NCBI RefSeq assembly: GCF_023806625.1
Contig: NZ_JAMTDX010000003.1
Coordinates: 1 to 51,658, forward strand
Source: Accumulibacter sp.
GTDB taxonomy: Bacteria > Pseudomonadota > Gammaproteobacteria > Burkholderiales > Rhodocyclaceae
Direction: 5' to 3'
DNA: 51,658 nucleotides
The translations under genes and the position numbers were made by a program. Under the pieces are notes generated by a model. That model was given only the letters and a program-made list of their open reading frames with translations. It searched no databases and was not told where the DNA came from. This document shows, one piece after another, positions 3,863-39,719 of this stretch. How positions within the stretch are numbered: position 1 is the first letter of the stretch; every line of letters begins with the position of its first letter.

Positions 3863-5580
<1,718 letters not shown>

Positions 5581-5584
<4 letters not shown>

Positions 5585-24289: not shown

Positions 24290-27200
24290 TCATCCGCCCG
24301 CCCTCGCTTGCTGCGCGTCGAGGAAACGTTCGAGGTCCGCGGCGACCAGCGGCGGGCTGAACAGGTAGCCCTGGTACGCGTCGCATCCCTGCGCCTTGAG
24401 CAGGTCGCGCTGCGCGACGCTTTCGACCCCTTCGGCGATCACCGCCAGGCCCAGACTGCTGGCCAGGGCGACGATCGTCCGCGCGATCACCTCGTCGTTG
24501 GGGTCGGTGAGCAGGTCGCGAACGAAGGACTGGTCGATCTTCAGCTGATCGAGAGGGAGCTTCTTGAGATAGGAGAGCGACGAGTAACCAGTACCGAAGT
24601 CGTCGAGCGAGAAGCAGACGCCGCGATCCTTGAGCGCGCTCATCTTGGCGATGATCTCCTGGACGTTGTCGAGCAGCATGCTCTCGGTGAGCTCGAGCTT
24701 CAGGTTGTGCGGGTTGGCACCGCTGCTGGCCAGGACGCCGAGGACCTGCTCGACGAAATTCGCCTGGCGCAGCTGCCGCGCGCTGACGTTGACCGAGACG
24801 GTCAGCCGTTCCCGGCCGGGGCACTCCGCCCAGACGGCAACCTGCGCACAGGCGGTTTCGAGGACCCACAGCCCGAGCGGCAGGATCAGCCCGGTCTCCT
24901 CGGCGAGCGGGATGAACTCGGCCGGAGAGACCAGACCGCGTTGCGGGTGCTTCCAGCGAACCAGCGCCTCGACGCCGACGACACAGCCTGAGCCATCGAC
25001 CTGCGGTTGATAGCAGAGGAAGAACTCCCGCCGCTGCAGCGCTTCGCGGAGGTTCTTCTCGAGCGCCGCGCGCGCCGTGACCACGGCCTGCATCTGCGGA
25101 TCGAAGAAACGCAGCGTGTTCCGCCCGGTCGCCTTGGCCTCGTACATCGCCAGATCGGCCCGCTTCATCAGTTCGTCGAGCGCATCCCGCTCGCCGCTGA
25201 ACAGCGTGATGCCCACGCTCGGCGTGTTGTGGTATTCGTGGCCAGCCAGGTCATAGGGGCGATTGAGGACTGCAAGGATCTTCTCGCCGACGATCCGGCT
25301 CTGGGTCACCGCTTCATCGATCCGCTCGCCGAGGTCCTCGAGCATGACCACGAACTCGTCCCCGCCGAGACGCGCGACCGTATCGCGACTGCGAATGCAG
25401 TCGGAAAGGCGGCGAGCGGCCTGCTGCAGCAGGAGGTCGCCCTTCTCGTGCCCGAGCGTGTCGTTGAGCGTCTTGAAATTGTCGAGATCGATGAACAGCA
25501 GCGCACCCTGGCGACCGCGCCGGGCACTCGTGGCCATCGCCAGACGCAGGCGCTCGTGCAGCAGGCGACGATTGGGCAGCCCGGTCAGCGCGTCGTAGAA
25601 GGCCAGATGCCGAATCTCCTCCTGAGCAGCCTTGCGCATCGTCAGGTCGGTCAGCGTCGCGACATAGTGCGTCACCCGGCCATCACTGTCGGTCACCGCC
25701 GAGATGGTCAGCCACTCGGGATAGATCTCGTCGCTCTTTCGCCGGTTCCAGATCTCGCCCTGCCAGGCGCCGGTACGCTCGAGGCTTTCACGCATCTCCG
25801 CATAGAAGGTCGCGTCGTGCCGACCCGAGCGGAGCAGCGACGGGTTGCGCCCGACCGCCTCCTCGGCCGAATAACCGGTAATCTCGGTGAACGCCTGGTT
25901 GACCCGCAGGATGATCCCGAACGCGTCGGTGATGAACATCCCCTGCTGCGATTCGAAGGCGGTCGCCGCGATCCTCTCCCACTGCTCGGCGTGCTTGCGA
26001 TCGGTGATGTCATGCGAGACGACGACGATCCGCACCGGCTGTCCCTCGCTGTCGCGGATCACCTTTCCCGACGACGACATGTGCCTGACGCTGCCGTCTC
26101 GACGCACCAGCCGATACTCGATTTCCTGGCCGACGCCGCTCTGTGCCGTCTCGTGAAACACGCGCTGGACGAGATCGCGGTCCTCGGGATGCACGTCGGC
26201 GAACGAGTCGCTGCCGCGCAGGTTCCTCGCGTCGCCGAAGAACTGCCGGTAAGACGGACTGTTGTAGAGTCGCCGGCCTTCGAGGTCGAGCACGGCGATG
26301 TGCTCGCCGATGCTCTCGGAAATCAGCCGGAAAAACTCGCGCTGGTCACGCAGGCTCGCTTCGAGTTCCTTCCGCGCGGTGACATCCTGCGCCGTCCCGA
26401 CGCTGCGCACCGGCCGCTCGTCGACGTCGAACTCGACTTCGGCACGCAGCACGATCCAGCGAACCGCACGGTCGACGACGATGCGCAGCTCGATGTCGAA
26501 GGTGTCTCCATGAAGCGCCGAATCGCTCGCCTGCTTCAGTGCAGCCCGATCGTCGGGATGCACGATAGCCAGAAACGACTGCATATCCCCGGTGACCCCC
26601 TCGGGCAGACCGAAGATCCGGCAGGTCTCGGCCGACATCTCGATCCGCCCGCCGATCAGGTCATAAATCCAGCTCCCGACGTGGGCAACGCCCTGAGCCC
26701 GGTTCAGGTCGGCCTCGCTGGCTTGCAGTTCGGCGGTCCGCTGGGCGAGGTCACGGCCGAGCTGCCGAACCTCGTCGATCCGGCTGCGGTACGAGCCGAC
26801 CAGATGAATGATCAGCAGCGCGGCGACGACGACCGCAGCGGTCTGGACGACGCCGAACATCAGCGCCGGGGTCGGCGGCCGAGGCGGCAGCCAGGCCCAG
26901 AGGTCACCGGCGACGAAGCCGACGATCGCGGCGACGGTCAGCGCGGCGATGACCACCGCCGTTCTCGGGCCGAGCAACCAGCCGCCGGTGAGGATCAGTA
27001 GCGGATAGACGATCACCAGCAGGCCGCGGACCCCGCCGAAGAAGGCGGTGATGCCGATCACCGTGAGCCAGGTTCCCCAGACGAGGACGGCCAGCGCGGC
27101 GCGTACGCGCCCGGCACGAAGCTGACGCAGCGAGATCGTCGCGACGACCGCGAGAAGCGCGGGCCCGACGGCACGCAGCGGCTGGTCGGGGATGACCAGC

Positions 27201-27334
27201 AGGATCGTCAGCAGCACGCCGAGCGCGCCGCAAAGGATCGCCCGGCTCGCCGCGCGCAGGAAAGTCAAGGACGGCGCCCAGAACATGGGCTGATCCTCGC
27301 GCGTTTCAGTCACCGCACCCCGCTCCCTGAGCAC
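24290..27334 (-). CDS. Membrane PAS-PAS-PAS-GGDEF-EAL protein (c-di-GMP metabolism)
   Basis: The protein has 1014 residues. Five or six membrane helices occupy about 30-180, then a helix, three PAS domains (about 205-325, 335-450 and 455-570), a GGDEF domain with intact GGDEF at 657-661 and an RxxD inhibitory site (RSRD, 648-651), and an EAL domain with EAL at 789-791, ELTES, DDFGTGYSSL, KIDQSFV and EGVES, all intact. Both synthase and phosphodiesterase activity are possible. The GTG at 27334 is chosen because GAGGAGGG lies 5 bp upstream. It follows the receiver-GGDEF gene by 33 bp and closes the signalling cluster. Confidence 0.93.
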   Translation of the reverse strand: MLRERGAVTETREDQPMFWAPSLTFLRAASRAILCGALGVLLTILLVIPDQPLRAVGPALLAVVATISLRQLRAGRVRAALAVLVWGTWLTVIGITAFFGGVRGLLVIVYPLLILTGGWLLGPRTAVVIAALTVAAIVGFVAGDLWAWLPPRPPTPALMFGVVQTAAVVVAALLIIHLVGSYRSRIDEVRQLGRDLAQRTAELQASEADLNRAQGVAHVGSWIYDLIGGRIEMSAETCRIFGLPEGVTGDMQSFLAIVHPDDRAALKQASDSALHGDTFDIELRIVVDRAVRWIVLRAEVEFDVDERPVRSVGTAQDVTARKELEASLRDQREFFRLISESIGEHIAVLDLEGRRLYNSPSYRQFFGDARNLRGSDSFADVHPEDRDLVQRVFHETAQSGVGQEIEYRLVRRDGSVRHMSSSGKVIRDSEGQPVRIVVVSHDITDRKHAEQWERIAATAFESQQGMFITDAFGIILRVNQAFTEITGYSAEEAVGRNPSLLRSGRHDATFYAEMRESLERTGAWQGEIWNRRKSDEIYPEWLTISAVTDSDGRVTHYVATLTDLTMRKAAQEEIRHLAFYDALTGLPNRRLLHERLRLAMATSARRGRQGALLFIDLDNFKTLNDTLGHEKGDLLLQQAARRLSDCIRSRDTVARLGGDEFVVMLEDLGERIDEAVTQSRIVGEKILAVLNRPYDLAGHEYHNTPSVGITLFSGERDALDELMKRADLAMYEAKATGRNTLRFFDPQMQAVVTARAALEKNLREALQRREFFLCYQPQVDGSGCVVGVEALVRWKHPQRGLVSPAEFIPLAEETGLILPLGLWVLETACAQVAVWAECPGRERLTVSVNVSARQLRQANFVEQVLGVLASSGANPHNLKLELTESMLLDNVQEIIAKMSALKDRGVCFSLDDFGTGYSSLSYLKKLPLDQLKIDQSFVRDLLTDPNDEVIARTIVALASSLGLAVIAEGVESVAQRDLLKAQGCDAYQGYLFSPPLVAADLERFLDAQQARAGG

Positions 27335-27367: not shown

Positions 27368-28687
27368 TCAGGCCCTCGCCGTGTCGGTGATTTCCCGGAA
27401 GAACCGGTAGCAGTTGCGGCCGGCCTTCTTGGCCAGGTACATCGCCAGGTCGGCGTTCTTCAGCAGGCTGTTGGCGTCTTCGCCATGTTGCGGATAGACC
27501 GCGATGCCGATGCTCGCCGAAACGACGATCTGATGCGGTCCGATACTGAATGGCCGATTCAACGCCGCGAGGATCTTGCCGCCAACGAGAACCGCATCGA
27601 CGGCCTTGTCGATCTGCGCCAGCAGGATGACGAATTCGTCGCCACCGAGGCGCGAGATCGTGTCCGATTCCCGGGGCACGCAGTTCTGCAGGCGCAGAGC
27701 CACTTCCTTCAGCAAGAGGTCCCCGACATCGTGACCCAGCGTGTCGTTGACCGGCTTGAACTGGTCCAGATCGAGGAACATCAGCGCCAGTGTGCTGCGT
27801 TCGCGCCGCGCCTGGGCCAACGCCTGAAACAGACGGTCAGTCAGCAGCACCCGGTTGGGCAGATCGGTCAGCTGGTCGTGGTGGGCGAGATGCTGAACCC
27901 TTTCCTCGGCGGCCTTGCGCTCGGAGATGTCCTGCTTGATGGCCACGAAATGGCGAATCCGGCCATTGACGTCAGTCACCGGAGAAATGGTCAGCGCCTC
28001 GTCGTAGAGGCTGCCGTCCTTGCGCCGATTGATCAGTTCACCGCTCCACACGCGACCGTCCAGTATCGTTTCCCACATCCGCTGATAGAAAGCGGCATCC
28101 TGCTTGCCGGAGTTGAGCATTTCACTCGTCGTTCGCCCGACCACCTCATCGAGCGTCAGACCGGTCATCCGGGTGAACGCCGGGTTCACCCACTCGATCC
28201 GCGAATTGACGTCGGTAACCAGGATGCCGTTCGCCGCCGAGTTCAGGGCCGCCTCGAAGAGTCGCAGGCGGGACTCGAGCTTCTGCCGGACGAGCGCGTG
28301 GCGGATCGCCCTGCCGAGTGCGTCGTGGTCGAACTGGCCCTTGACGAGGTAGTCCTGAGCCCCGGCTTCGAGCGCCGCTTCGGCCAGCTGATGATCGTCC
28401 TGGCCCGTCAGGACGATGACCGGCACATCCGGAACGACCGAGCTCATCACCTGAACCGTCGCCAGTCCCGCCGAATCGGGCAAGGAAAGGTCGAGCAGCA
28501 CGACGTCGGGCGCGACACTCACCGCCAGCGCAGCGCCGTCGACCAGCGTCGACGCGGTCGCCACGGAGCCCCGGTCACCCCCACGCCGCAGGCCGGCCAG
28601 GCGGAGGTACGCCTGGATCAATCCAAGGTCGCCCGGATCGTCCTCGACCACGAGAATCGCGATCTGCGACTGCGCTGGCTTGCTCAT
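27368..28687 (-). CDS. Receiver-PAS-GGDEF diguanylate cyclase
   Basis: The 439-residue protein has a complete receiver domain (acidic pair EDD at 15-17, phospho-acceptor D66 in VVLLDLSLP, T94, K116), a PAS domain (about 140-260, WVNPAFTRMTG) and a GGDEF domain with intact GGDEF at 348-352 and RESD I-site at 339-342. It is likely a phosphorylation-controlled c-di-GMP synthase. Its ATG overlaps the stop of the degenerate receiver gene (ATGA). It is the natural output for one of the kinases at 29811-34845. Confidence 0.93.
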   Translation of the reverse strand: MSKPAQSQIAILVVEDDPGDLGLIQAYLRLAGLRRGGDRGSVATASTLVDGAALAVSVAPDVVLLDLSLPDSAGLATVQVMSSVVPDVPVIVLTGQDDHQLAEAALEAGAQDYLVKGQFDHDALGRAIRHALVRQKLESRLRLFEAALNSAANGILVTDVNSRIEWVNPAFTRMTGLTLDEVVGRTTSEMLNSGKQDAAFYQRMWETILDGRVWSGELINRRKDGSLYDEALTISPVTDVNGRIRHFVAIKQDISERKAAEERVQHLAHHDQLTDLPNRVLLTDRLFQALAQARRERSTLALMFLDLDQFKPVNDTLGHDVGDLLLKEVALRLQNCVPRESDTISRLGGDEFVILLAQIDKAVDAVLVGGKILAALNRPFSIGPHQIVVSASIGIAVYPQHGEDANSLLKNADLAMYLAKKAGRNCYRFFREITDTARA

Positions 28688-29172
28688 CGACGGTCCTCCG
28701 TTCCCCCCAGTCTGCCCGGCGACCACCCGCCATCGTGCGGCAGACACACCAGTCCGAACCAGTAGTCGCCAAGTGCGTCGATGACCGCCAAGAGATCCTC
28801 CGCCTCCTCCCCTCGCGGCAGGCAACTCGCTGCGCCAGCCCGGTAGGCGGCACGCACGTCGTCGTCGGGCAGCAATGGAGCGACGACGATCACCGGGACC
28901 GCGCGCAACGCTTCGTCCTGCTTCAGCGCGCAGAGGCATTCGAGGGCGCCGGACGCCGGGCTGCCCAGGTCGAGCATGATCAGGTCCGGGCACTCCCTGG
29001 CCGTAAGGTCGTCTCGCCTGGCGGACAACCAGCCGCGCGCCTCTGACCCATCCTGCGCTGCGTGAATCTCGACCTCGCACATCCTGCACAGCAGAGACTG
29101 CCGCGCGCGACTCGCCTGGTCGGCGTTCCGGGTGACGATCAGCATTCGTCTGCTACGCAGCCGCTGATTCAT
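28684..29172 (-). CDS. Degenerate receiver-domain protein
   Basis: The 162-residue protein folds like a receiver (MLIVTRNADQ, DLIMLDLGSP, VPVIVVAPLL, YRAGAASCLPRGEE) but the acidic pair is lost (TRNAD), the conserved Thr/Ser is alanine (A98) and the conserved lysine is arginine (R120); the acceptor Asp (D68) remains. It ends YWFGLVCLP, like the YWGSVVRLP end of the Rcp1-like receiver at 29321-29773, so the two are probably paralogues. It is likely a non-phosphorylated docking partner for the downstream receiver-GGDEF protein, with which it is translationally coupled. Confidence 0.8.
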   Translation of the reverse strand: MNQRLRSRRMLIVTRNADQASRARQSLLCRMCEVEIHAAQDGSEARGWLSARRDDLTARECPDLIMLDLGSPASGALECLCALKQDEALRAVPVIVVAPLLPDDDVRAAYRAGAASCLPRGEEAEDLLAVIDALGDYWFGLVCLPHDGGWSPGRLGGTEDRR

Positions 29173-29320: not shown

Positions 29321-29773
29321 TCACTGTCGCTCCGGAAGTCGCACGACGCTGCCCCAGTAGGTCGTCAGCTTGCGTATGTCACGGATGAACTCGGTGACGT
29401 CGGGCGACTTGGCGAGATAGCCGGCGGCACCCAGCCGATACGCGGCGACGACGTCGCGCTCTGCGCGGGAGGTGCTCAGGACGACCACCGGAATCTCGCG
29501 CAATTCGCCATCTTCCTTGATCGCTGCGAGAAACTCCCGGCCGTCCATGCGCGGCAGGTTGAGATCGAGCAGGATCAGGTCCGGACGCACCGCAGCGGCG
29601 AAGCGCAGACCCTGGCGGCGCAGGTACTCGAGCGCTTCCCGGCCGTCGACGACGTGCTGCACGTCGGCAGCGACGTGGTTCTCCTTCAGCGCCAGCCGAA
29701 ACAGGTGGGCATCGGCCGGCTCGTCCTCGGCCAGCAGAATGACCAGTTGAGGGGCCGGGGTGTGGGCTGTCAT
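29321..29773 (-). CDS. Rcp1-like single-domain response regulator
   Basis: The 150-residue protein is a stand-alone receiver with all key residues: acidic EDE at 16-18, D70 in DLILLDLNLPRMDG, S100/T101 and K122. The layout (VILLAEDEPADAHLFRLALKE, YLRRQG, YWGSVVRLP) matches the Rcp1 family that pairs with phytochrome-type and PAS-type histidine kinases. It follows the CHASE kinase by 37 bp and may shuttle phosphate between the kinases and other receivers. The frame is open far upstream but that part overlaps the kinase. Confidence 0.9.
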   Translation of the reverse strand: MTAHTPAPQLVILLAEDEPADAHLFRLALKENHVAADVQHVVDGREALEYLRRQGLRFAAAVRPDLILLDLNLPRMDGREFLAAIKEDGELREIPVVVLSTSRAERDVVAAYRLGAAGYLAKSPDVTEFIRDIRKLTTYWGSVVRLPERQ

Positions 29774-29810: not shown

Positions 29811-31463
29811 TCACGACCGGCCCTCGGGCGCCAAGTTCTCCTCCCCTGCCGGCAATTCCAGCACAACTTGGCAACCTCCGCCAGGGGCTTCCTCGATCCA
29901 GGCGTGGCCACCGATGCTCTCGGCAATGCGCTGCAGCAGCGCGAGCCCGATACCGGTTCCCTCGCCGCTGGCCGAGAGGCGCTCGAAGACCCGGAACACC
30001 CGCGCCCGATACTCTGGTTCGACCCCGGGGCCGTTGTCGCTGACCCGGTAGCGGACGAGGTCCCCGCTGCGTGATCCATCGATCTCGATGCACAGCGCAT
30101 TCTCGCTTCGGCCGTGGTCCAGCGCGTTTTCGAGCGCCACCCGGAACATGTCGCCGAGGCGCGGTGCATCGATCCGGGCACGCGGCAGCGGACCCACCCG
30201 AACGCGCGCGCCGGCTTCGCCAATCGACTCGGCGAGCCTGCTCAGCAGCGCGGCCACGGTCTGTTCCGCGTCACAGGACTCGACCCGGCCACGCGGCTGG
30301 TCCGCGGCCAGGTACAGCTCGACATCGCGCAGCAGTTCCTGAAGGCGGCCCGCCTGCTGGCCGATGAAGTCGAGTGAGATGTTCGCCTCGGGGTCGTCGA
30401 GTCGTCCGGCGAGCTGGCCCTTGAGCCGACCGGCGTAACTGACCATGCGGCGCGCCGGTTCCTGAAGGTGATGCGCAGTGACTTCGGCGAAGCGCTGCAG
30501 GTCCGCCGTGCGCTGTGCGACCCGGCGTTCGAGATTGCGCTCGTGCGCCTTGGCGGTTGCGGCGAGTCTCGTCTGCCATCCGGCCTGCCAGGCGAGCAGT
30601 GCGCAGAACAGCAGACCGACCAGCGACTGCCAGAGCAGCCCGGGCACATCGCCCCAGCCAACCGGTGGCGCGAGCCGCAGGATCAGGCTGGCGTTGGCTA
30701 CGGGAACGACCCTTTCCACCGGATCGCTCCCGACGGCGCTGGCCGACCTGGCAATCAGTTGCGCGCCGTGGCTATCCGGCGACGACCAGAGCACTTCGTA
30801 GCCATAACCATGCTCCACCAGTTCCGCGAGGCGCACCGGCGCGGCGATCTCGTGAACAGCGATGACCGCGATCGCCAGCCCCCAGAATCCGTGCTGACCG
30901 TGGGCCTCGTCGACGAAGATCGGCAGACAGCCGGCGAGTGCCAGGCCGCCGTCCATCGCGTAGGGGCCAGCGATCGTCAGCTGGCCGGTGTCGCGGGCGC
31001 GCCGCGCGGTCGCACCGAGCAGCGGGTCGCCGAGCAGATCGTGCGCGATCGCCGCCTCGTGGCCATCCGCTGGCGCCACCTGCCTGACTACTCCCCCGCG
31101 AGCGAGTTGGAGCATCGTCGACCCCGGAAAATCCCGCAGCAGGCCAGCGATCGCCGGCAGGCGGTCTTCGCTACCACTCCTCCAGCCCTGGCGAACGATC
31201 GCCGACAGCGCATAGGTCGCCGACAACGCACGCTCGAGGCCCGACTGCATCGCGAACGCCTGTTCGGCGGCAAGAGTCGCGGCCAGGCCGCGAGCATCGC
31301 GCAGGCGGTAGCGCTCCTGGCGCCAGATCAGCCCGGCGACGAGCGCTGCGGCGAGGACGAAGACGGCCAGCGCGATGCTGATCGGCTGACAAACCCGGGC
31401 CGCGAGCAGCGCCCGGATCTGCGACGGCCGTGCGGCCACGCCGCGGCTGATCCGCGCGATCAC
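29811..31463 (-). CDS. CHASE-type membrane sensor histidine kinase
   Basis: The 550-residue protein has a first membrane helix at about 27-47, a periplasmic CHASE-like sensor (about 65-260, beginning LAAEQAFAMQSGLERALSATYAL), a second helix at about 276-296, a coiled coil, a HisKA region with the phospho-acceptor histidine at 331/332 (AEVTAHHLQEPAR) and an HATPase domain with ENALDHG, SDNGPGV and GTGIGLAL. All kinase motifs are present. It starts with GTG overlapping the upstream kinase stop (GTGA). Confidence 0.88.
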   Translation of the reverse strand: MIARISRGVAARPSQIRALLAARVCQPISIALAVFVLAAALVAGLIWRQERYRLRDARGLAATLAAEQAFAMQSGLERALSATYALSAIVRQGWRSGSEDRLPAIAGLLRDFPGSTMLQLARGGVVRQVAPADGHEAAIAHDLLGDPLLGATARRARDTGQLTIAGPYAMDGGLALAGCLPIFVDEAHGQHGFWGLAIAVIAVHEIAAPVRLAELVEHGYGYEVLWSSPDSHGAQLIARSASAVGSDPVERVVPVANASLILRLAPPVGWGDVPGLLWQSLVGLLFCALLAWQAGWQTRLAATAKAHERNLERRVAQRTADLQRFAEVTAHHLQEPARRMVSYAGRLKGQLAGRLDDPEANISLDFIGQQAGRLQELLRDVELYLAADQPRGRVESCDAEQTVAALLSRLAESIGEAGARVRVGPLPRARIDAPRLGDMFRVALENALDHGRSENALCIEIDGSRSGDLVRYRVSDNGPGVEPEYRARVFRVFERLSASGEGTGIGLALLQRIAESIGGHAWIEEAPGGGCQVVLELPAGEENLAPEGRS

Positions 31464-33100
31464 GAACGTTCCCCGGGAACGGGCAGGACGAGGTGAAAGC
31501 AGCTGCCCAGCCCTTCACCTGCGGATTCGACCCAGATCCGCCCGCCGTGGTGCTCGGCGATCTTCCGGCACAACGCCAGACCCACTCCGCTGCCCTCGAA
31601 CGATGCGCGCCCCTGCAGACGCTGGAAGACGTGGAACAGCCGTCCGATCTGTCCGGGGTGAATGCCGATGCCGTTGTCCGCGACCGACACCTCCCATTCG
31701 TTGCCCGACAGCCTGCTGACCACGGTGATCTCGGGAGTCCTCCCGCTGACGCGAAACTTGGTCGCATTGCCGATCAGGTTCTGGAACAGGCGCAGCATCT
31801 CGTCGGGGCGAACATAGACCCGGGGCCACCGGCCACGCACGCTGACTCGGGCCTCGGCCTCGGCAATCGCCGGCTGCAGAAACAGCAGCGCCTCGTCGAG
31901 AACCACCCGGCTGTGCAGCCAGACCGGTGGCTCGCCCAGACGGCCGACTCGCGAGTATTCGAGCAGCGCGACGAGCATCCGGTCGAGGCGCCGCGCACCG
32001 TCGATCGCGAAGCTGAAGTAGTCGTTCTGCTCGGCGTCGAGCCGACCGGCGAGGCTGATCCCGAGCAGCTGCAGGTAACTGGAGATCATCCTCAGCGGCT
32101 GGCGCAGGTCGTGCGAGATCGCGTAGCTGAACTGTTCGAGTTCGGCATTCGACCGACGCAGCTCCTCTTCGGCCTGCTTGCGTTCGGTGATGTCCTGCGT
32201 GGTGCCCAGGCTGCGCAGCGGTCGACCCTGCCCGTCGCGGGTCAGGTCGGCCTGATGACGGACGTGACGCGGCTTTCCACCGACGATGATCCGGTGTTCG
32301 TGCTCGAACTCCTCGCCGCTGCCCAGGAACTCGTGCCAGGCCTCGATGAACGCCTCGCGGTCTTCGGGGACCAACCTGTCGAGATAGGTCTGGCAGCTGC
32401 CGACCGTCCCCTCGGGAACGCCGAATATCCGGCAGCTCTCGGCCGAGAGCTGCATCTCGTCACTGACCAGCTCATAGTTCCAGCTCCCGACGTGGGCCAC
32501 CGACTGCGCCCGAATCAGCATCGCCTCGCTTTCGCGCAGGGCCTGCAACGCGCGATCGCGTTCGCTGACCTTCTCTTCGAGATCGCGCTGCAGGCTCTCC
32601 TGTTCGCGCATCAGCCGATAGGTGCGGATCGCCGAATAGACCTGAACGAATATCCGGTTGGCGCTGAGTTCCGACTTGAGCCGATAACCGTCGATCGCGT
32701 AGCCGCTGACCACCTCGCGCTGCGGGGCATAGCCCGGCTGCCCGGTGAGCAGGACGATCTGGATGCAGCGATTGCCGAGTTCATCGCGCACGTGGCGGAC
32801 GAGTTCAAGCCCGGCCTGGTCGGACTCCATGACCACGTCGAGGAGGATCAGGGCAACGTCGGGATACTCGGCCAGCAGGGTCTTCGCCTGACTCGCCGAG
32901 CGGGCGTCGAGCAGCCGCAACCGGCGGCCTTCGACGAGCACGTCGTGTAGCGCCAGGTGCAAGACGGCATGGACGTCCTGCTCGTCATCGACGAGCAGGA
33001 CTCCCCAGCAGGGAAGATCGCGCTGCAACACCTCGTCGGCCGGATCGGGGGCGAAAAGCACCGGAAAGTCGTCGCCATCGCCAGGCAGACCGCTGCTCAT
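31460..33100 (-). CDS. Receiver-PAS hybrid histidine kinase
   Basis: The 546-residue cytoplasmic protein has an N-terminal receiver (VDDE at 37-40, acceptor D88, T119, K142), resembling the receivers that precede DUF3369, a coiled coil (about 165-195), a PAS domain with PAC tail (about 200-310), the HisKA histidine H330 (FSYAISHDLRQPLRM, a phytochrome-type H-box) and an HATPase domain with NLIGNATKF, DNGIGI and GSGVGLAL. The architecture suggests it receives phosphate from the DUF1638-like kinase and passes it on. Start and stop overlap both neighbours by 4 bp. Confidence 0.9.
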   Translation of the reverse strand: MSSGLPGDGDDFPVLFAPDPADEVLQRDLPCWGVLLVDDEQDVHAVLHLALHDVLVEGRRLRLLDARSASQAKTLLAEYPDVALILLDVVMESDQAGLELVRHVRDELGNRCIQIVLLTGQPGYAPQREVVSGYAIDGYRLKSELSANRIFVQVYSAIRTYRLMREQESLQRDLEEKVSERDRALQALRESEAMLIRAQSVAHVGSWNYELVSDEMQLSAESCRIFGVPEGTVGSCQTYLDRLVPEDREAFIEAWHEFLGSGEEFEHEHRIIVGGKPRHVRHQADLTRDGQGRPLRSLGTTQDITERKQAEEELRRSNAELEQFSYAISHDLRQPLRMISSYLQLLGISLAGRLDAEQNDYFSFAIDGARRLDRMLVALLEYSRVGRLGEPPVWLHSRVVLDEALLFLQPAIAEAEARVSVRGRWPRVYVRPDEMLRLFQNLIGNATKFRVSGRTPEITVVSRLSGNEWEVSVADNGIGIHPGQIGRLFHVFQRLQGRASFEGSGVGLALCRKIAEHHGGRIWVESAGEGLGSCFHLVLPVPGERS

Positions 33101-34845
33101 CTTGGAACCTCGAGGTGAAAGCCGAGACCCTGGCCCGAATCGTCGCAGCACCTGATTCGACCGCCAAGGCGATGGGTGACCAGATTGTGCACCATGAACA
33201 GCCCGAGCCCGGCCCCGTGCTCGTGGTCGGTGGTGAAGAAGGGCTCGAAGACCCGGCCCGGCTCGGTCCCCTGAAGCCCGCGACCGTCGTCCCGATAATC
33301 GAGGTGCAACGATCCACCGACGACGACGACGCCGATCATGATCTGCCCGCGGGCGCGCCCGACGAAGGCGTGGCGCAACGAGTTGCCGATCAGGTTGACC
33401 AGGACGCACACCCAGTCGGCGAAGAAGCTCTCGATCTCGATCCGCGGATCGCATTCCAGCCGCACGGCCACGCGGTCTCCCGACAACGCAGCGCCGAAAC
33501 TGCGCACCACCTGATCGAGGCAGTCCCGCAAGCTGAAGCGCAACCTCTCGTCGGGACGCTCGTCGAGGGCCACCTGGTGGAAGCTGTCGACCAGCCTGGC
33601 GATCCTTTCGAGGCTCGACCGGACGAGCCGGTTCGCCGACCTCGCCCGGTCGAGGTGTCGAGTCAGGTCGGACCGGCTCAGACAGCCGGCAGCCAGCCGC
33701 TCCACGATCTCCCGGGATTCTCCGTGCATGGTCGACGACGCGGTCAGGGCGATGCCCAGCGGCGTATTGATCTCGTGTGCGACTCCGGCGACGAGAGCGC
33801 CGAGCGAGGCCATCTTTTTCGCCGCCAGCAACCGCTCACGCGCCCGGGCATTCTCGATGGCCAGCGCGCAGACTCCGCTCATCGCCAGCGCATGGTTCAG
33901 GTAGCGTTCGCGATGCTGCGGACAGGCCAGTTCATCGACGGCCAGCAGACCGAGCACCTCGCCCCGTCGGGCGATGCGCAGCATGAAGCCGCGACCCGAG
34001 GGCGTCCAGTCGTAGTCGTCCTGCAACGCCAGCAGCGGTCCCAGCAGGTCCTGCGGCACCGTGGCGTCGGGATTGGCAACGCTGTTCTCCACCGTCACAT
34101 GATAAAACCTGCCGGGGGCAAAGAGCATCCCGAAGAGTTCGCCGATCGTCGTGAGCACCTCGGCTTCGTTGCTGCTGCGCGCCAGCCGGGCGAAAAGATC
34201 GATCGCCGCGAAATGCTCGGCAAGATTGCGTGCGATCCGCGCATCACGCTCGCCGATGGTCGCTCGCGCCTCGTCGAGGCGCCATTCCAGGACGCTCCTG
34301 GCGAATGTCTGGCGACACTGCCCGAGTCCGACGGACAGGCGACCCGCCGGCAGACCCAGGCTCTTGGCCATCTCGGCAAGCAACGCCGGGGCTGCGGAAT
34401 CGATGCCGGTGTCGAGGAGCACGATGCGCCGGGCGAACTCGGCGAAGAACTCCGCCGCGCCATTGGCGCCGAATCCCATCCGTGAAAGATGGCCTCGCCA
34501 GTCGGCCAGCCAGCCGGGACTGACCAGATAAGCCCCCTCGGCCAGGGCCTGGTCGACGACCCCTGGGTCGGCAACCAGGTGGAAGCACTGGTCGAGCACG
34601 CGGCGCCGCAGCGGCCCGCAATCCGACAGCCGATCGAGGCCGACGAGGCAGGGTCGTCCGAGGACGAGCAGGGCAGCACCGGCGTCGCCGATCGCCGGCT
34701 GGAGCTCGTCCCAGCCAAGCGGCGGGCAGCCACAGCGCGCGCACACGCTGCTCACCTGGACGTCGTCCCAGCCCTCGGCGGCAACGGCTGCGACGGCCTC
34801 GCCGGCGAAGTGCCGGCAGACGACCAAACGAAGAGCACCGGCCAT
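33097..34845 (-). CDS. Histidine kinase with DUF1638-like cysteine-rich sensor and GAF domain
   Basis: The 582-residue protein has an N-terminal region (1-190) resembling DUF1638, a family often encoded beside corrinoid methyltransferases: LRLVVCRHFAGEA, a Cys cluster CARCGC (C35, C38, C40) with further Cys at 10, 66, 76, 87, then YLVSPGWLADWRGHLSRMGF and FARRIVLLDTGID. A coiled coil and GAF domain (about 210-335) follow, then HisKA with H357 (AGVAHEINTPLG) and HATPase with NLIGNSLRHAF, DDGRGL and GAGLGLFM. No membrane segment is seen. The DUF1638 assignment is by pattern recognition. The ATG overlaps the stop of the UroD-like gene (TGATG). Confidence 0.82.
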   Translation of the reverse strand: MAGALRLVVCRHFAGEAVAAVAAEGWDDVQVSSVCARCGCPPLGWDELQPAIGDAGAALLVLGRPCLVGLDRLSDCGPLRRRVLDQCFHLVADPGVVDQALAEGAYLVSPGWLADWRGHLSRMGFGANGAAEFFAEFARRIVLLDTGIDSAAPALLAEMAKSLGLPAGRLSVGLGQCRQTFARSVLEWRLDEARATIGERDARIARNLAEHFAAIDLFARLARSSNEAEVLTTIGELFGMLFAPGRFYHVTVENSVANPDATVPQDLLGPLLALQDDYDWTPSGRGFMLRIARRGEVLGLLAVDELACPQHRERYLNHALAMSGVCALAIENARARERLLAAKKMASLGALVAGVAHEINTPLGIALTASSTMHGESREIVERLAAGCLSRSDLTRHLDRARSANRLVRSSLERIARLVDSFHQVALDERPDERLRFSLRDCLDQVVRSFGAALSGDRVAVRLECDPRIEIESFFADWVCVLVNLIGNSLRHAFVGRARGQIMIGVVVVGGSLHLDYRDDGRGLQGTEPGRVFEPFFTTDHEHGAGLGLFMVHNLVTHRLGGRIRCCDDSGQGLGFHLEVPR

Positions 34846-35897
34846 CAGCCTGCCCGAGCCGCGCTGGGAATCCAGTCGAGCGGATAACGGCCCCAGCGCT
34901 CGACGGCGTCGCCGATGGCCATCAGGACCTGGTCGGCGACCTGCCAGGGAATCTCGCCGTGGTTGTCGGAAAGGATGAAGCCACCACCCCGCGCCGCACC
35001 GGCAATCGCCCGCCTGACCTCGGCTTCGGCGCGCACCGGCGTCCACCGGCGCATCTCGACCCCGTTCAGATTGCCCAGCAGGGCCACGCGATCGCCGGCC
35101 GCCGCCTTGAGAACACGCAGGTCCTCGAGCGCGCTGACGCCGACGGCGAGCGTCCCGGTGTCGGCGAGGTCGCCCATGATCGGCAGCGCGCGCCCCGAAG
35201 CCAGATGCGTTGCCGTTGGGCCCGTGATCCGGGCGAGGGTCCGCCGCGCAACCCGCCGGCCAGTCTGCCGGTAGAGCGCCGGCGGAATGACCGAAGCCGC
35301 AGACAGCGGATCGAAATAGCAGATCGCCGTCGCCCCGGCGGCCAACTGTGCGTTGGCCCAACTGACGGTGAATTCCTCGTTGACGCGCATCAATTGCTCG
35401 AAGCGCGCCCGGTCGTCGTGGATCAGGTCGAGGTACGCGGCGAATCCCATCTGCATCACGGGCAACGAAAACGGAGAAATCGCCACCCCGATGACCGGCA
35501 CGCGGTCGCCGGCAAAGTCGCTCAGCCGGCGAATGGTCTCGATGACCCGCAGCAGACCCGGAGCGTCGTCGATCGCCGGCGGATCGAGCCTGTCGATCAG
35601 TGACGCGCTGCCGATCACCGGTTCGCCGCAGGCCGGCGGCCCATCGGCCCGGAAGTGTGTCGATCCACCCCAGGCCTCGGCCTCGATCGCTGCATAGAAG
35701 AAGGCGTAGAGGCAATCGCCGCGGTACTTCCTGAATAGCCGCAACTGCCCCTCGACGACGTGCTCGGCCGCCGAAAAGTACTCGGCGATCGGCATGCCCA
35801 GTTCGCGGGCGCCGTGCAACGTGGCCAGCAGGAAGAGCGGAACGCGGTCGGGCTCCTGGTGCGCCAGCGCAGCCAGGCAGCGCTGCATCGAATTCAT
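34845..35897 (-). CDS. UroD/MtaA/CmuA-family methyltransferase-like protein
   Basis: The 350-residue protein has the TIM-barrel pattern of uroporphyrinogen decarboxylase-type methyltransferases: RCLAALAHQEPDRVPLF at the N-terminus, PFSLPVMQMGF, ICYFDPLSA, PIMGDLADTG and VALLGNLNGVEM. Methylcobalamin:thiol methyltransferases bind zinc through H-x-C plus a distal Cys; here the first site reads H231-L-A233-S and the distal loop reads SDNHGEIPW, with no Cys. The enzyme may use other ligands (H231, D311, H313) or have become a binding protein. It overlaps the corrinoid protein gene (ATGA) and the sensor kinase gene. Confidence 0.85.
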   Translation of the reverse strand: MNSMQRCLAALAHQEPDRVPLFLLATLHGARELGMPIAEYFSAAEHVVEGQLRLFRKYRGDCLYAFFYAAIEAEAWGGSTHFRADGPPACGEPVIGSASLIDRLDPPAIDDAPGLLRVIETIRRLSDFAGDRVPVIGVAISPFSLPVMQMGFAAYLDLIHDDRARFEQLMRVNEEFTVSWANAQLAAGATAICYFDPLSAASVIPPALYRQTGRRVARRTLARITGPTATHLASGRALPIMGDLADTGTLAVGVSALEDLRVLKAAAGDRVALLGNLNGVEMRRWTPVRAEAEVRRAIAGAARGGGFILSDNHGEIPWQVADQVLMAIGDAVERWGRYPLDWIPSAARAG

Positions 35898-36526
35898 CGC
35901 CCCTCCTCGAGCAGCGCACGAACGATTCCCGGCGCGTCGCCGGCAGTGCGCCCCATGGCGTGCGCACCGACTTCGCGCCAGAGTTCGGCATCGAAGTGGA
36001 AGGGCGCCCCGCCGACGGCCACCCGGACCGGCAGGTCGCGCGCCCGCAGGGCCGCAGTCAGCGCTCCGACCTGGAGCGCGGCGGGCAGCATGAGCACCGA
36101 GATCAGCAACACCTCGAGGCGATCCGCAGCGACGCGCGAGACGAGCTCATCGACGTCCATTCGGCCGTAGTCGAGGACCGCGATCCCGCTGGCGCGCAGC
36201 ACCGCGCTGACGATTCGCTTGCCGAGGAAATGGTAGTCGTTGAGCACGACGATCGCCGTCCGTGGCCGCTCACCGCCGGCTTCAATGCCTGCCGGGAAGA
36301 CCCCGGAGACCAGCCGTTCGCAGAAGCGGCCGGCCACATAGACCTGCGACAGCGCCGTCCGTCCCTCGTCCCAGCCCCGGCCGATCGCTTCGAGCGCCGG
36401 AACGATCAGCTGCTCGACGGCTTCGATCGGGGCACGGTCGGCAAGCGCCAGGCGAAAGAGTGCGTCAGCCCGAAGCTGATCGAGTTCCTCGAGGGCCGCG
36501 AGAAAACTCTGCGGCAAGTCGCTCAT
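35894..36526 (-). CDS. Corrinoid (B12-binding) methyltransferase-type protein
   Basis: The 210-residue protein has the two parts of MtaC/MtbC-type corrinoid proteins: an N-terminal helical bundle (LFRLALADRAPIEAVEQLIV, then GWDEGRTALSQVYVAGR) and a Rossmann-like B12 domain with all three motifs: D97-Y-H99-F-L-G102 (axial histidine H99), S143-V-L145, and G172-G173. It should bind cobalamin base-off/His-on. Two ATGs are possible; the one at 36526 has GAGGTG 6 bp upstream, the other (36532) abuts it. It heads the operon that continues into the UroD-like and kinase genes. Confidence 0.9.
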   Translation of the reverse strand: MSDLPQSFLAALEELDQLRADALFRLALADRAPIEAVEQLIVPALEAIGRGWDEGRTALSQVYVAGRFCERLVSGVFPAGIEAGGERPRTAIVVLNDYHFLGKRIVSAVLRASGIAVLDYGRMDVDELVSRVAADRLEVLLISVLMLPAALQVGALTAALRARDLPVRVAVGGAPFHFDAELWREVGAHAMGRTAGDAPGIVRALLEEGR

Positions 36527-36937
36527 CGCCATCACCTCGCGGCAACCGGGTAGTCGACCAGGCGACTCCGGCGGCCAGTCGTTCCTGCTCGCGGCGTCGG
36601 CGACCACCGGCCAAAGCGATTCGGCACGGGCTTCGCGCTGCTGCGCGAAGCCGGTCGCGGACGCTCCGCGAGCGCAGAGCATTTCCATGAATTTTCGTAT
36701 ACGGCAGGCACCCGGCCGGGCTTGAGATCTCGCCGCAGATGGTTGGCGCGAGTTCGCCCCGGCGGCCGGGTCGGAAAGCGATGAAGCTCGCCGACGGCAC
36801 CCACGCACTGCCGGCGGCGCGGCGCTGTCAGCCGGACCCCCGGCCCGCGAAGCCGCCAGGATCTGTGTCAGTATACGGGCCTTGTCAGGGCGGCGCCGAG
36901 GGCCGCCAACCAGGAGACCCGTTGGCGAGGAAATGCA
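36527..36937. other. Divergent intergenic region between corrinoid operon and iorA, with two GTATACGG sites
   Basis: No gene is recognised. The octamer GTATACGG occurs twice, at 36697-36704 and 36871-36878, both on the plus strand and both in the few AT-containing patches of the region; each contains the palindrome GTATAC. Neither is accompanied by a clear -35. They could be -10-like elements or operator half-sites serving the divergent genes. I looked for a cobalamin riboswitch on the minus strand and saw none. GAGGAAA precedes the iorA ATG. Confidence 0.4.
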
Positions 36938-38842
36938 ATGAGTGCTGAAGCAGTGATGTCCGGGCGGCCAGTGGCACCGGCAAGCCGATTGCTGATGTCG
37001 GGAAACGAGGCCGTGGCGAGGGCGGTGTGGGAAGCGGGCGGCCGCGTTGCGGCAGCGTACCCGGGTACACCATCGACCGAGATGCTCGAGGCATTGTCTG
37101 CCTATCCGGACATCTACAGCGAATGGTCGGTCAACGAGAAGGTCTCGCTCGAAGTCGCTTTCGGAGCGGCAATGGCCGGTGCCCGAAGCTTCTGCGCGAT
37201 GAAGCACGTCGGGATGAACGTCGCCTCGGATGCACTGATGACCATGACGCTGACCGGCGTCGTCGGCGGGCTGGTCATCGCCATCGCCGATGACGTGGGT
37301 CTGTCGTCTTCGCAAAACGAGCAGGATTCGCGCTTCTGGGGCCGCTTCGCGCACGTTCCGCTACTCGAACCGGCCGACTCGCAGGAAGCATACCGGTTCA
37401 CGCTGGCCGCTTTCGACCTGTCCGAGCGCTTCGAGGTGCCGGTGATCGTGCGCATGACGACACGGATCTGTCACGTCAAGGGATTGGTCAGCACCGGCGA
37501 ACGCAGCGCGCGACCGACCGCCGGCTTCGCCAAGGACGCCAGCCGCTGGGTGATGGTGCCCAGCGCAGCCGGTCGCCGCCTGCCGCTGATGTTCGAGCGC
37601 GAACGACGTCTGCGCGCCGAGGCCGAAGTCTCGCCGCTCAATTTCGCCGAGTCCGGAGGTGACCGCCGGATCGGCTTCGTCACCTCGGGGCCGGCCTACA
37701 TGCACGTCCGCGAGAGTTTTCCCGACGCGCCGGTGTTCAAGCTCGGTCTGTCGCATCCGCTGCCATTCGACCGCCTGCGCAGCTTCGCCGCCGAGTGCGG
37801 GCAACTGGTCGTCGTCGAGGAAGTCGAACCGCTGATCGAGAACGAGCTCAAGGCGCAGGGAATGAAGGTGATCGGCAAGGACATCCTGCCCTTGTCGGGC
37901 GAACTCTCGCCGCAGGTGCTCAAGCCGGCGATCGCTCGCCTGCTCGGCGACGCGGCGCCCGAACCGTCCCGCGCTCAACCGATGCCGGTCTTCCCGCGTC
38001 CACCGACGATGTGCGTCGCCTGCCCACATCTCGGCGTCTATTACACGCTCTCGCAGCTACGCAACGTGACCATTTCGGGCGACATCGGTTGCTACACGCT
38101 CGGCTTCGGACAACCCTGGAACGCCCTCGATGCGTGCATCTCGATGGGCGCGTCGATGGGCATGGCGCTCGGTCTCGACAAGGGACGGAGTGAATCCGAG
38201 AAGGACCGCAAGGTGCTCGCCGTGATCGGCGACTCGACCTTCCTGCACATGGGTATGCAGGGACTGCTCGACATCGTCTACAACCGCGGCAACGTCACCG
38301 TCCTGCTGCTCGACAACCGGGCAGTGGGCATGACCGGCGGTCAGGACAATCCGGGAAGTGGCCGGGACATCCACGGCAACGACGCTCCGCGAGTCGATTT
38401 CGCCCAACTGGTCAGGGCGCTCGGCGTGCGCGAAGAGCGCGTCCACGTGGTCAACGCCTACGAACTGCCGGTGCTGCTGAAGACCCTGCGCGAGGAAACG
38501 AAGATCCCCGAACCCTCGGTGATCATCACCAACCAGCCGTGCGTGCTGATCAAGGACTACCACCCGCTGAAGCCCTACAAGGTGCTCGACGAGCGGTGCA
38601 CCGGCTGCGGCAACTGCATCGACGTCGGCTGTCCGGCGATCCATGTCACGCGTCGCGACCGGGTCAGGAAGGCCAGCGGCCGCGAGGTCGACCTGGCCTT
38701 CGTGCGCATCGAGAGCGCCGCCTGCACCGGCTGCGGACTGTGCCTCAAGCCCTGCGCGCCTGACGCGATCGTCCATGTCGACACGCTGGCGATGCCGATC
38801 AAGGTGGTCCGCAAGGAGGCTGCAGCACCGACGAGCGCGTAG
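36938..38842 (+). CDS. iorA: Indolepyruvate:ferredoxin oxidoreductase alpha subunit
   Basis: IorA is the thiamine-diphosphate subunit that decarboxylates arylpyruvates (from Trp, Phe, Tyr) to acyl-CoA and reduces ferredoxin. The 634-residue protein has MSGNEAVARAVWEAGGRVAAAYPGTPSTE at the N-terminus, the TPP-binding region GDIGCYTLGF and IGDSTFLHMGMQGLLD, and a C-terminal ferredoxin-like domain with two 4Fe-4S motifs, CTGCGNCIDVGCPA and CTGCGLCLKPCAP. It is followed 241 bp later by iorB. The divergence from a corrinoid operon may be relevant, since ferredoxin reduces corrinoid proteins in other systems. Confidence 0.95.
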   Translation: MSAEAVMSGRPVAPASRLLMSGNEAVARAVWEAGGRVAAAYPGTPSTEMLEALSAYPDIYSEWSVNEKVSLEVAFGAAMAGARSFCAMKHVGMNVASDALMTMTLTGVVGGLVIAIADDVGLSSSQNEQDSRFWGRFAHVPLLEPADSQEAYRFTLAAFDLSERFEVPVIVRMTTRICHVKGLVSTGERSARPTAGFAKDASRWVMVPSAAGRRLPLMFERERRLRAEAEVSPLNFAESGGDRRIGFVTSGPAYMHVRESFPDAPVFKLGLSHPLPFDRLRSFAAECGQLVVVEEVEPLIENELKAQGMKVIGKDILPLSGELSPQVLKPAIARLLGDAAPEPSRAQPMPVFPRPPTMCVACPHLGVYYTLSQLRNVTISGDIGCYTLGFGQPWNALDACISMGASMGMALGLDKGRSESEKDRKVLAVIGDSTFLHMGMQGLLDIVYNRGNVTVLLLDNRAVGMTGGQDNPGSGRDIHGNDAPRVDFAQLVRALGVREERVHVVNAYELPVLLKTLREETKIPEPSVIITNQPCVLIKDYHPLKPYKVLDERCTGCGNCIDVGCPAIHVTRRDRVRKASGREVDLAFVRIESAACTGCGLCLKPCAPDAIVHVDTLAMPIKVVRKEAAAPTSA

Positions 38843-39083
38843 CCTGGCGACGCGCTGCCGGAGACGAGCCCGACGGCGGCCGAGGCGCAGCAGTCGCGTG
38901 GCACCGACGGCGGTCGGCAGGACGGAGCACCCCGCGGCAGGGTTACCGGCGAACCAGCCGAGTGGTCCACCGGCCTGCCGGGGCAGCACCCCCGAGGACC
39001 CCGCCGCACTGCTCCGAGGGCAGGTCGGATAACCGCCTCGGGCGCCGTTTCACCTCATTCTGACCGACGGAGACTCCAGCCCC

Positions 39084-39719
39084 ATGGCTCAAGAAGCAGC
39101 TTTCACCACCACCAACATCCTGGTCGTCGGTACCGGTGGCCAGGGCGTGATGACCGCCACCGAGATTCTCGCCGAAGCGGCGATCGCCCTCGGCCACGAC
39201 GTCAAGAAGACCGAAGTCGCCGGAATGGCCCAACGCGGCGGGGTCGTCTCGTCGCACCTGCGTTTCGGCCAGCGCGTCCTCTCGCCGCAGATCACCCCGG
39301 GAACGGCTGACGTCCTGCTCGGCTTCGAGGCTGCCGAAGCGATGCGCTGGCGGCACATGCTGCGCCCGCAAGGGCTCGTGCTGATGAACAGCGGACGTCT
39401 GGTGCCGCCGGTCGTCGAACTCGGACTCTACGACTATCCCGCCGACCCGGTCGGCGCCATGCGCGCCGCCGGGACGCACGTCGTCTCTTTCGACGGGTCG
39501 GCGATCGCTCTCGGGCTCGGCGACGTTCGGCTGGGCAACACGGTGATGCTCGGGGCGATCTCCGACCATCTCCCCTTCCCGGCGGAAGTGCTCGAGCAGT
39601 GCATCCTGAAGCGCTTTGCGCACAAGAAGCCGGAAATCGTCGAGCTCAACCGGCGCGCGTTTGCCGCCGGCCGAGCGGCTGCCGAGGAAGCAGAGCGCGT
39701 ATCGGCCGCGGCCGACTGA
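39084..39719 (+). CDS. iorB: Indolepyruvate:ferredoxin oxidoreductase beta subunit
   Basis: The 211-residue protein is the gamma-type subunit (2-oxoacid:acceptor oxidoreductase family) that binds Co[25 protein letters not shown] at the N-terminus, [22 protein letters not shown], then a C-terminal [14 protein letters not shown]. It pairs with IorA to make the active heterodimer. The 241-bp gap from iorA contains no other gene or clear terminator that I can see. Confidence 0.93.

Follow-up and report, generated by a model that had tools for sequence, protein, structure and literature searches.

Corrinoid, UroD-fold and DUF1638-kinase genes in an Accumulibacter genome form a conserved set that looks like an undescribed sensing device

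The window, by which we mean the whole 51,658-nucleotide stretch of Accumulibacter sp. DNA analysed here, carries on its minus strand adjoining genes for a corrinoid protein, a UroD-fold protein and a sensor kinase (P0001, P0002 and P0003, together the trio), followed by further signalling genes (Table 1). A first-pass annotation had described three co-directional genes with overlaps of 4 bp and 1 bp, and both the coordinates and the overlaps are borne out on the minus strand, where the P0001/P0002 junction reads ATGA and the P0002/P0003 junction TGATG. The genes and motifs of that three-gene operon were correctly given, but the overlapping chain is longer and extends into P0004 and the CHASE-domain kinase. 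Residues D38, D39, D88, T119 and K142 of the P0004 receiver are invariant in all five sequences aligned. A search of positions 36300-37200 for a sigma-70 promoter or terminator pattern found none. Divergent from the trio lie iorA and iorB, the alpha and beta genes of indolepyruvate ferredoxin oxidoreductase (36938-39719, plus strand), with the alpha match at 617.9 bits, just below the model cut-off of 650.9; the only other locus among 86 with a counterpart has it about 5 kb before its trio (L091:200-2667). Elsewhere in the window, an Rfam match to 5_ureB_sRNA (5148-5429, plus strand; 109 bits, cut-off 40) lies antisense inside the urease-alpha gene (3863-5584, minus strand), and coding conservation of urease may be its sole cause.

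Table 1. Genes and domains of the trio and the signalling genes that follow it, in window coordinates.
Feature	Position	Strand	Basis
Corrinoid protein P0001, 210 aa; helical cap and B12-binding domain, stand-alone	35894..36526	-	Pfam, invariant motif residues
UroD/MtaA-fold methyltransferase-like protein P0002, 350 aa	34845..35897	-	
Sensor kinase P0003, 582 aa: DUF1638-related (1-175), long helix (175-223), GAF-fold (~227-335), HisKA/HATPase_c	33097..34845	-	
DUF1638-related domain of P0003, with C10, C38, C66 and C87	34321..34845	-	Cys conservation
Dedicated GAF-fold domain of P0003	33832..34248	-	Locus conservation; no Pfam GAF match by sequence
Receiver-PAS-histidine kinase P0004	31460..33100	-	Pfam; 4-bp overlap with P0003
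CHASE-domain sensor kinase	29811..31463	-	CHASE and HATPase_c, ORF; 4-bp overlap with P0004
Single-domain response regulator	29321..29773	-	Response_reg 7.4e-18 on part 29321-29725; ATG at 29773
Weak receiver-like protein	28684..29172	-	Response_reg 5.7e-06, 26.9 bits, below cut-off
Receiver-PAS-GGDEF protein, diguanylate cyclase by family	27368..28687	-	Pfam; ATG at 28687
PAS-GGDEF-EAL protein; possible end of signalling cluster	24290..27334	-	Pfam

P0001 has the sequence features of a methyltransferase corrinoid protein, and cobalamin binding is predicted. It matches both B12-binding_2 (38.1 bits) and B12-binding (49.9 bits) above cut-off, and the three cobalamin motifs that had been noticed at first pass (DxHxxG, SxL and GG) are all there, as D97-x-H99-x-x-G102, S143-x-L145 and G172-G173, and do not vary in any of 75 rows, taken from the window and 74 of 80 related loci (in the remaining six the gene is split, cut or weak). 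The corrinoid profile finds methylamine corrinoid proteins as its best matches, with CarH and a B12-GGDEF protein as distant ones. According to the part of PMC11796333 available, an EH pair ten residues past a conserved Trp is the signature of B12 light sensors; at this position all 75 rows have V/I/L/T62-Y/F63, and the EH pair is absent. The same genome appears to encode a MetH-type B12 protein elsewhere, so the organism probably uses cobalamin.

P0002 has a UroD-type barrel (Pfam URO-D, 173.6 bits) with the methylcobalamin:CoM methyltransferase MtaA as its nearest fold, in agreement with the first-pass assignment. It falls below the curated cut-offs of the MtaA/CmuA models (85.0 against 235.4 bits for TIGR01463; 66.6 against 400 bits for NF040654) and below those of NCBIfam across the MtaA/MtbA/CmuA models. 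Uroporphyrinogen decarboxylase HemE was considered and rejected, with TIGR01464 at 41.7 against 302.95 bits and the fold closest to MtaA. The protein is highly conserved, with 73% mean column identity over 81 rows and H313, G314, E315 and W285 kept in all 81. The HIC of the MtaA chain 4ay7 aligns with H231, L232 and S234 of P0002 (S234 in 79 of 81 rows), and the second MtaA Cys falls outside the alignment. The HxC residues of MtaA, which we take to be zinc ligands, are thus not conserved, so that an MtaA-like thiol-methylating reaction by P0002 is doubtful. The UroD fold also includes enzymes that are themselves substrate methyltransferases, namely CdmB, MtvB, OdmB, VdmB and CmuA, some of which, such as CdmB, work without zinc (as given in the available part of PMC13222342). 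By analogy with these, the second gene could itself encode the substrate-specific methyltransferase, and the earlier argument that such an enzyme is missing from the locus fails.

In P0003, HATPase_c scores 55 bits, above its cut-off, and HisKA (23.0 bits, cut-off 26.9) and DUF1638 (22.8 bits, cut-off 27) lie just below theirs. H357, the putative H-box histidine, stands in the motif HEINTPLG, and N and G boxes are present; a role in phosphorylation is predicted. The resemblance of the N-terminus to DUF1638, on which the first-pass annotation had staked its reading, withstands profile comparison: residues 2-183 align with canonical DUF1638 at an hhalign probability of 98.4% (E 6.8e-15), 62 of the 64 proteins scanned match PF07796 at E<=1e-3, and several homologues pass its curated cut-off (for instance L101, at 56.1 bits). 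Four cysteines, C10, C38, C66 and C87, are kept in 57, 56, 56 and 56 of 58 rows. Three of them, C10, C66 and C87, align with three cysteines of canonical DUF1638, each present in 30 of 30 rows (the 30 best of 58 matches), and C38 lands one residue off an invariant His of the canonical family. Searched with phmmer against solved structures, the N-terminal 200 residues of P0003 had no match; in the structure comparison the matches of P0003 were taken up by its GAF domain, so that the DUF1638 fold was barely probed by it.

That GAF-fold domain, at residues ~227-335, was absent from the first-pass annotation, and Pfam GAF models match none of 46 rows of it. Its distribution indicates that it is dedicated to the corrinoid-UroD system and is a specific marker missed by Pfam. 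A search of 369 class genomes, own genome included, gave six matches at E<=1e-5, in five genomes, and all six lie beside a UroD gene of the system. The UroD gene itself occurs in six of the 369, five of them being the genomes with the GAF domain; in the sixth, the DUF1638 gene ends about 50 bases from the contig end and the downstream sequence is missing.

The set is conserved well beyond this class. Genomes were scanned with nothing but the UroD alignment, so that the partner genes were not selected for; of the 206 relatives found, the best 80 loci were kept. Within these best 80 of 206, a corrinoid gene adjoins the UroD gene in all 80, the DUF1638 domain follows in 69 of the 77 loci with room for it and is lacking in eight, and the GAF-fold domain follows in 71 of the 73 with room, the two without being L063 and L064. 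Seven of the eight loci without DUF1638 keep the GAF domain, alone or on a kinase (L068, L071, L080, L085, L097, L099 and L103, not L064). Record titles of the 80 loci name beta-, gamma- and alphaproteobacteria, desulfobacteria, Chloroflexi, Riflebacteria and Thermodesulfovibrio, and further Verrucomicrobia, Bacteroidales, Spirochaetales, Aminicenantes, SAR324 and a Methanomicrobiales bin, with the reservation that most are metagenome bins, so that single taxon assignments may be wrong. The loci of the scan include two cultured species, Zoogloea ramigera and Z. oleivorans. Between loci, the distances of each protein of the trio correlate with those of the other two (Mantel r 0.74-0.84 with 55 loci, none of 999 permutations as high), which fits joint inheritance and partly reflects shared species history. 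Closer to home, the trio is missing from at least 20 genomes of the same genus and is therefore accessory there. Among 150 relatives, own genome included, the UroD gene occurs in five and a DUF1638-GAF query matches six, the extra match being an orphan DUF1638 gene. This orphan (L014:1703-2344) is of the trio type, at 345 bits against a profile built partly from it, and adjoins a gene that looks glutamate-dehydrogenase-like from its sequence, with no corrinoid or UroD match in the 14 kb read. Scores for L024, L027, L034, L042 and the orphan are inflated, since these are the contigs that, as L010-L014 and together with the window, supplied the sequences for our DUF1638 and corrinoid profiles. 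Duplications occur as well: a tandem corrinoid-UroD-corrinoid-UroD-DUF1638 array lies at L109:7352-11399, in a genome (G366) with a third set on contig L106, and L103 has a second dedicated GAF copy (13478-13915) about 4 kb past the first.

What varies between loci is the output. Among 64 complete DUF1638 proteins, HATPase_c is present in 48, a receiver in 14, GGDEF in seven and Hpt in three (counted without the five duplicate loci L010-L013 and L105, proteins truncated where a contig stops, the split protein of L054 and, in L063, the second DUF1638). Five of the seven GGDEF-type proteins were read singly, and no ATPase domain is listed in them. Because the output domain is swapped between kinase and GGDEF while the input stays, the trio reads as an input to signalling. 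The neighbourhood is rich in signalling genes too: 59 of 140 neighbour positions hold a co-directional gene within 150 bp, and 43 of these 59 are signalling genes (kinase, receiver, GGDEF, EAL, CheB, HD), 12 are other or unmatched and four belong to the system itself. These counts exclude the 81 positions on the other strand or more than 150 bp away, and the labels come from Pfam for 26 of the 59 and from kinase, receiver, UroD, DUF1638 and corrinoid profiles for the other 33. A receiver related to that of P0004 scores above 100 bits in 26 of the 80 loci. Common metabolic neighbours, considered as a clue to the ligand, were rejected: when the unlabelled genes of 86 loci were clustered, only seven clusters were common to three or more loci, and the largest, spanning 25 loci, strings together response regulators, GGDEF proteins and stand-alone GAF genes among its annotated members.

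Classical partner methyltransferases are mostly missing from the carriers, as the first-pass annotation had observed for this stretch. The Accumulibacter genome itself has no match to MTTB, MtaB or RACo (RACo_C_ter). In a search of 45 carriers, this genome and the genomes behind 44 of the 80 loci, 37 gave no MTTB match, 43 no MtaB match and 18 no match to the RACo activator, own genome included each time; many of these are metagenome bins of unstated completeness, which makes any single absence weak. RACo is present in the other 27 and lies near the trio in only one locus. Tblastn near the trio in 92 loci (five of them duplicates) found MttB in none, MetH in none and RACo in one, with two MttB, two RACo and one MetH query, by which distant relatives can be missed. 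Regular presence of a substrate methyltransferase and an activator at such loci was not seen with these queries, and the trio co-occurs largely without MtaB or MttB, which is the pattern that had been proposed for checking. A plain catabolic cluster was rejected as an explanation, as the partner enzymes are mostly not found genome-wide or near the trio. One locus stands apart: in a Hyphomicrobiales bin (L063:567-9627), a RACo-like gene, a corrinoid-UroD fusion, a canonical DUF1638 gene (91.7 bits) and a hybrid kinase gene directly precede a trio in which DUF1638 is stand-alone and the GAF domain is lacking. A genuine methyltransferase system may here sit next to the sensor that serves it, in which case the trio might be expected to read a substrate of methyl transfer; a single locus proves nothing.

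A sensory role for the trio is, on this evidence, very probable. The first-pass annotation had proposed that the corrinoid pair senses and signals through the kinase; of this, the trio as a signalling input stands, given a set conserved across phyla, swapped outputs and classical partner methyltransferases mostly missing, whereas the argument from the lack of a methyltransferase does not. As the best explanation, with a probability of roughly 0.7, we propose a three-protein cytoplasmic sensory input module in which the state of cobalt is read by DUF1638-GAF. P0001 would carry cobalamin with its cobalt held by H99; P0002 would dock on P0001 and move a methyl group between a small molecule and cobalt; the DUF1638-GAF part of P0003 would recognise whether P0001 is in the methylated Co(III) or the Co(I)/Co(II) state; and this recognition would switch the attached kinase, which would pass phosphate to receiver proteins encoded alongside and, in the window, probably on to c-di-GMP enzymes. 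This scheme is weakest at the reduction of cobalt to Co(I), because no RACo-type activator gene turned up in the own genome or in 17 of the 44 further carriers. Whether methyl transfer itself is the signal or trigger is a narrower matter, and judging from the sequences we rate it slightly below an even bet. At slightly lower odds again, this may be a categorically new input principle, with corrinoid methyl transfer used only to read the environment: the UroD protein would load a methyl group from a signal molecule onto the corrinoid protein, and DUF1638-GAF would turn the state of cobalt into phosphorylation or c-di-GMP. In the boldest form we propose, the DUF1638 cysteines would themselves take the methyl group, by analogy with Ada, which accepts a methyl group itself in DNA repair.

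The main rival, which we consider unlikely, is a sensor of redox or cobalamin state that works without methyl transfer. The corrinoid protein would then report the supply of cobalamin, or a redox state (oxygen, low-potential electron donors), with the UroD-fold protein as a docking or gating partner that has ceased to turn over. The carriers in which activator, MTTB and MtaB were not found (18, 37 and 43 of 45) and the altered MtaA HxC ligands speak for it, and the four near-invariant DUF1638 cysteines would fit a metal or redox site. However, P0002 looks like a protein with a working active site, given its 73% mean column identity and the four residues kept in 81 of 81 rows. Far less probable is ordinary methyltransferase metabolism, in which the DUF1638-kinase fusions would reactivate the corrinoid, the GHKL ATPase replacing RamA, and pass on no signal. 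The many carriers in which an activator was not found would be explained in this way, and DUF1638 has been linked to B12 reactivation in Phaeobacter in the part of PMC5764234 available; but seven of 64 proteins match GGDEF, with no ATPase domain listed in the five read singly, P0003 has a putative H-box histidine at 357 and N and G boxes, and receiver and GGDEF/EAL genes adjoin. A light sensor of the CarH or photocobilin kind with adenosylcobalamin is disfavoured and the least probable of all, for although the corrinoid profile does reach CarH and a B12-GGDEF protein at a distance, methylamine corrinoid proteins match better and the EH pair is replaced in 75 of 75 rows.

If the proposed cobalt-reading input module is real, parts of corrinoid methyltransferases act as sensors besides catabolic enzymes in many phyla, and the DUF1638 family gains a testable role, the recognition of corrinoid-protein state. 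Annotations such as 'MtaA-like' or 'corrinoid protein' in such genomes would then need not imply methylotrophy.

In the open-access literature we found no description of a corrinoid-UroD-DUF1638/GAF system, and the set looks like an undescribed sensing device rather than a substrate-catabolising pathway. MtaA/MtbA and the MT I enzymes CdmB, MtvB, OdmB and CmuA resemble P0002 in fold and in having a corrinoid-protein partner; unlike their systems, the operon in the window has no gene for a tetrahydrofolate methyltransferase or an activator. The type 1 mlp clusters of Kountz & Balskus (PMC10418091) are like the trio in combining UroD-family and corrinoid proteins, in being widespread and in having no folate methyltransferase, but, as far as the available part of that paper goes, each has genes for two or more Mlps and for a Ram/RACE activator, whereas the own genome has no RACo_C_ter match, and a sensor kinase and DUF1638 are not mentioned there. 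CarH and the photocobilins share with the trio the use of a corrinoid domain in signalling, including diguanylate cyclase output, yet they are single-protein adenosylcobalamin light sensors with the EH motif that the trio lacks (available part of PMC11796333). MsmS of Methanosarcina acetivorans, a PAS and GAF kinase regulating methyl-sulfide genes, is like P0003 in kind, but it is a heme-based sensor, and a corrinoid or UroD input is not mentioned in the accessible portion of PMC6944256. As to DUF1638 itself, Phaeobacter inhibens requires a stand-alone gene of the family alongside its split B12-dependent methionine synthase, with no specific function proposed by the authors in the part of PMC5764234 available, and Ruegeria makes more DUF1638 protein on methylated osmolytes, according to the available part of PMC12478193. 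In the split methionine synthase of Phaeobacter and Ruegeria, as in the trio, DUF1638 stands beside a B12-binding protein, and three cysteines are common to the canonical family and ours. Members of the canonical family are short, with 51 of 58 matches scoring 83-114 bits in frames of 200-337 aa, whereas the DUF1638 domain of the trio is divergent, is usually fused to GAF and output domains, and has a UroD partner.
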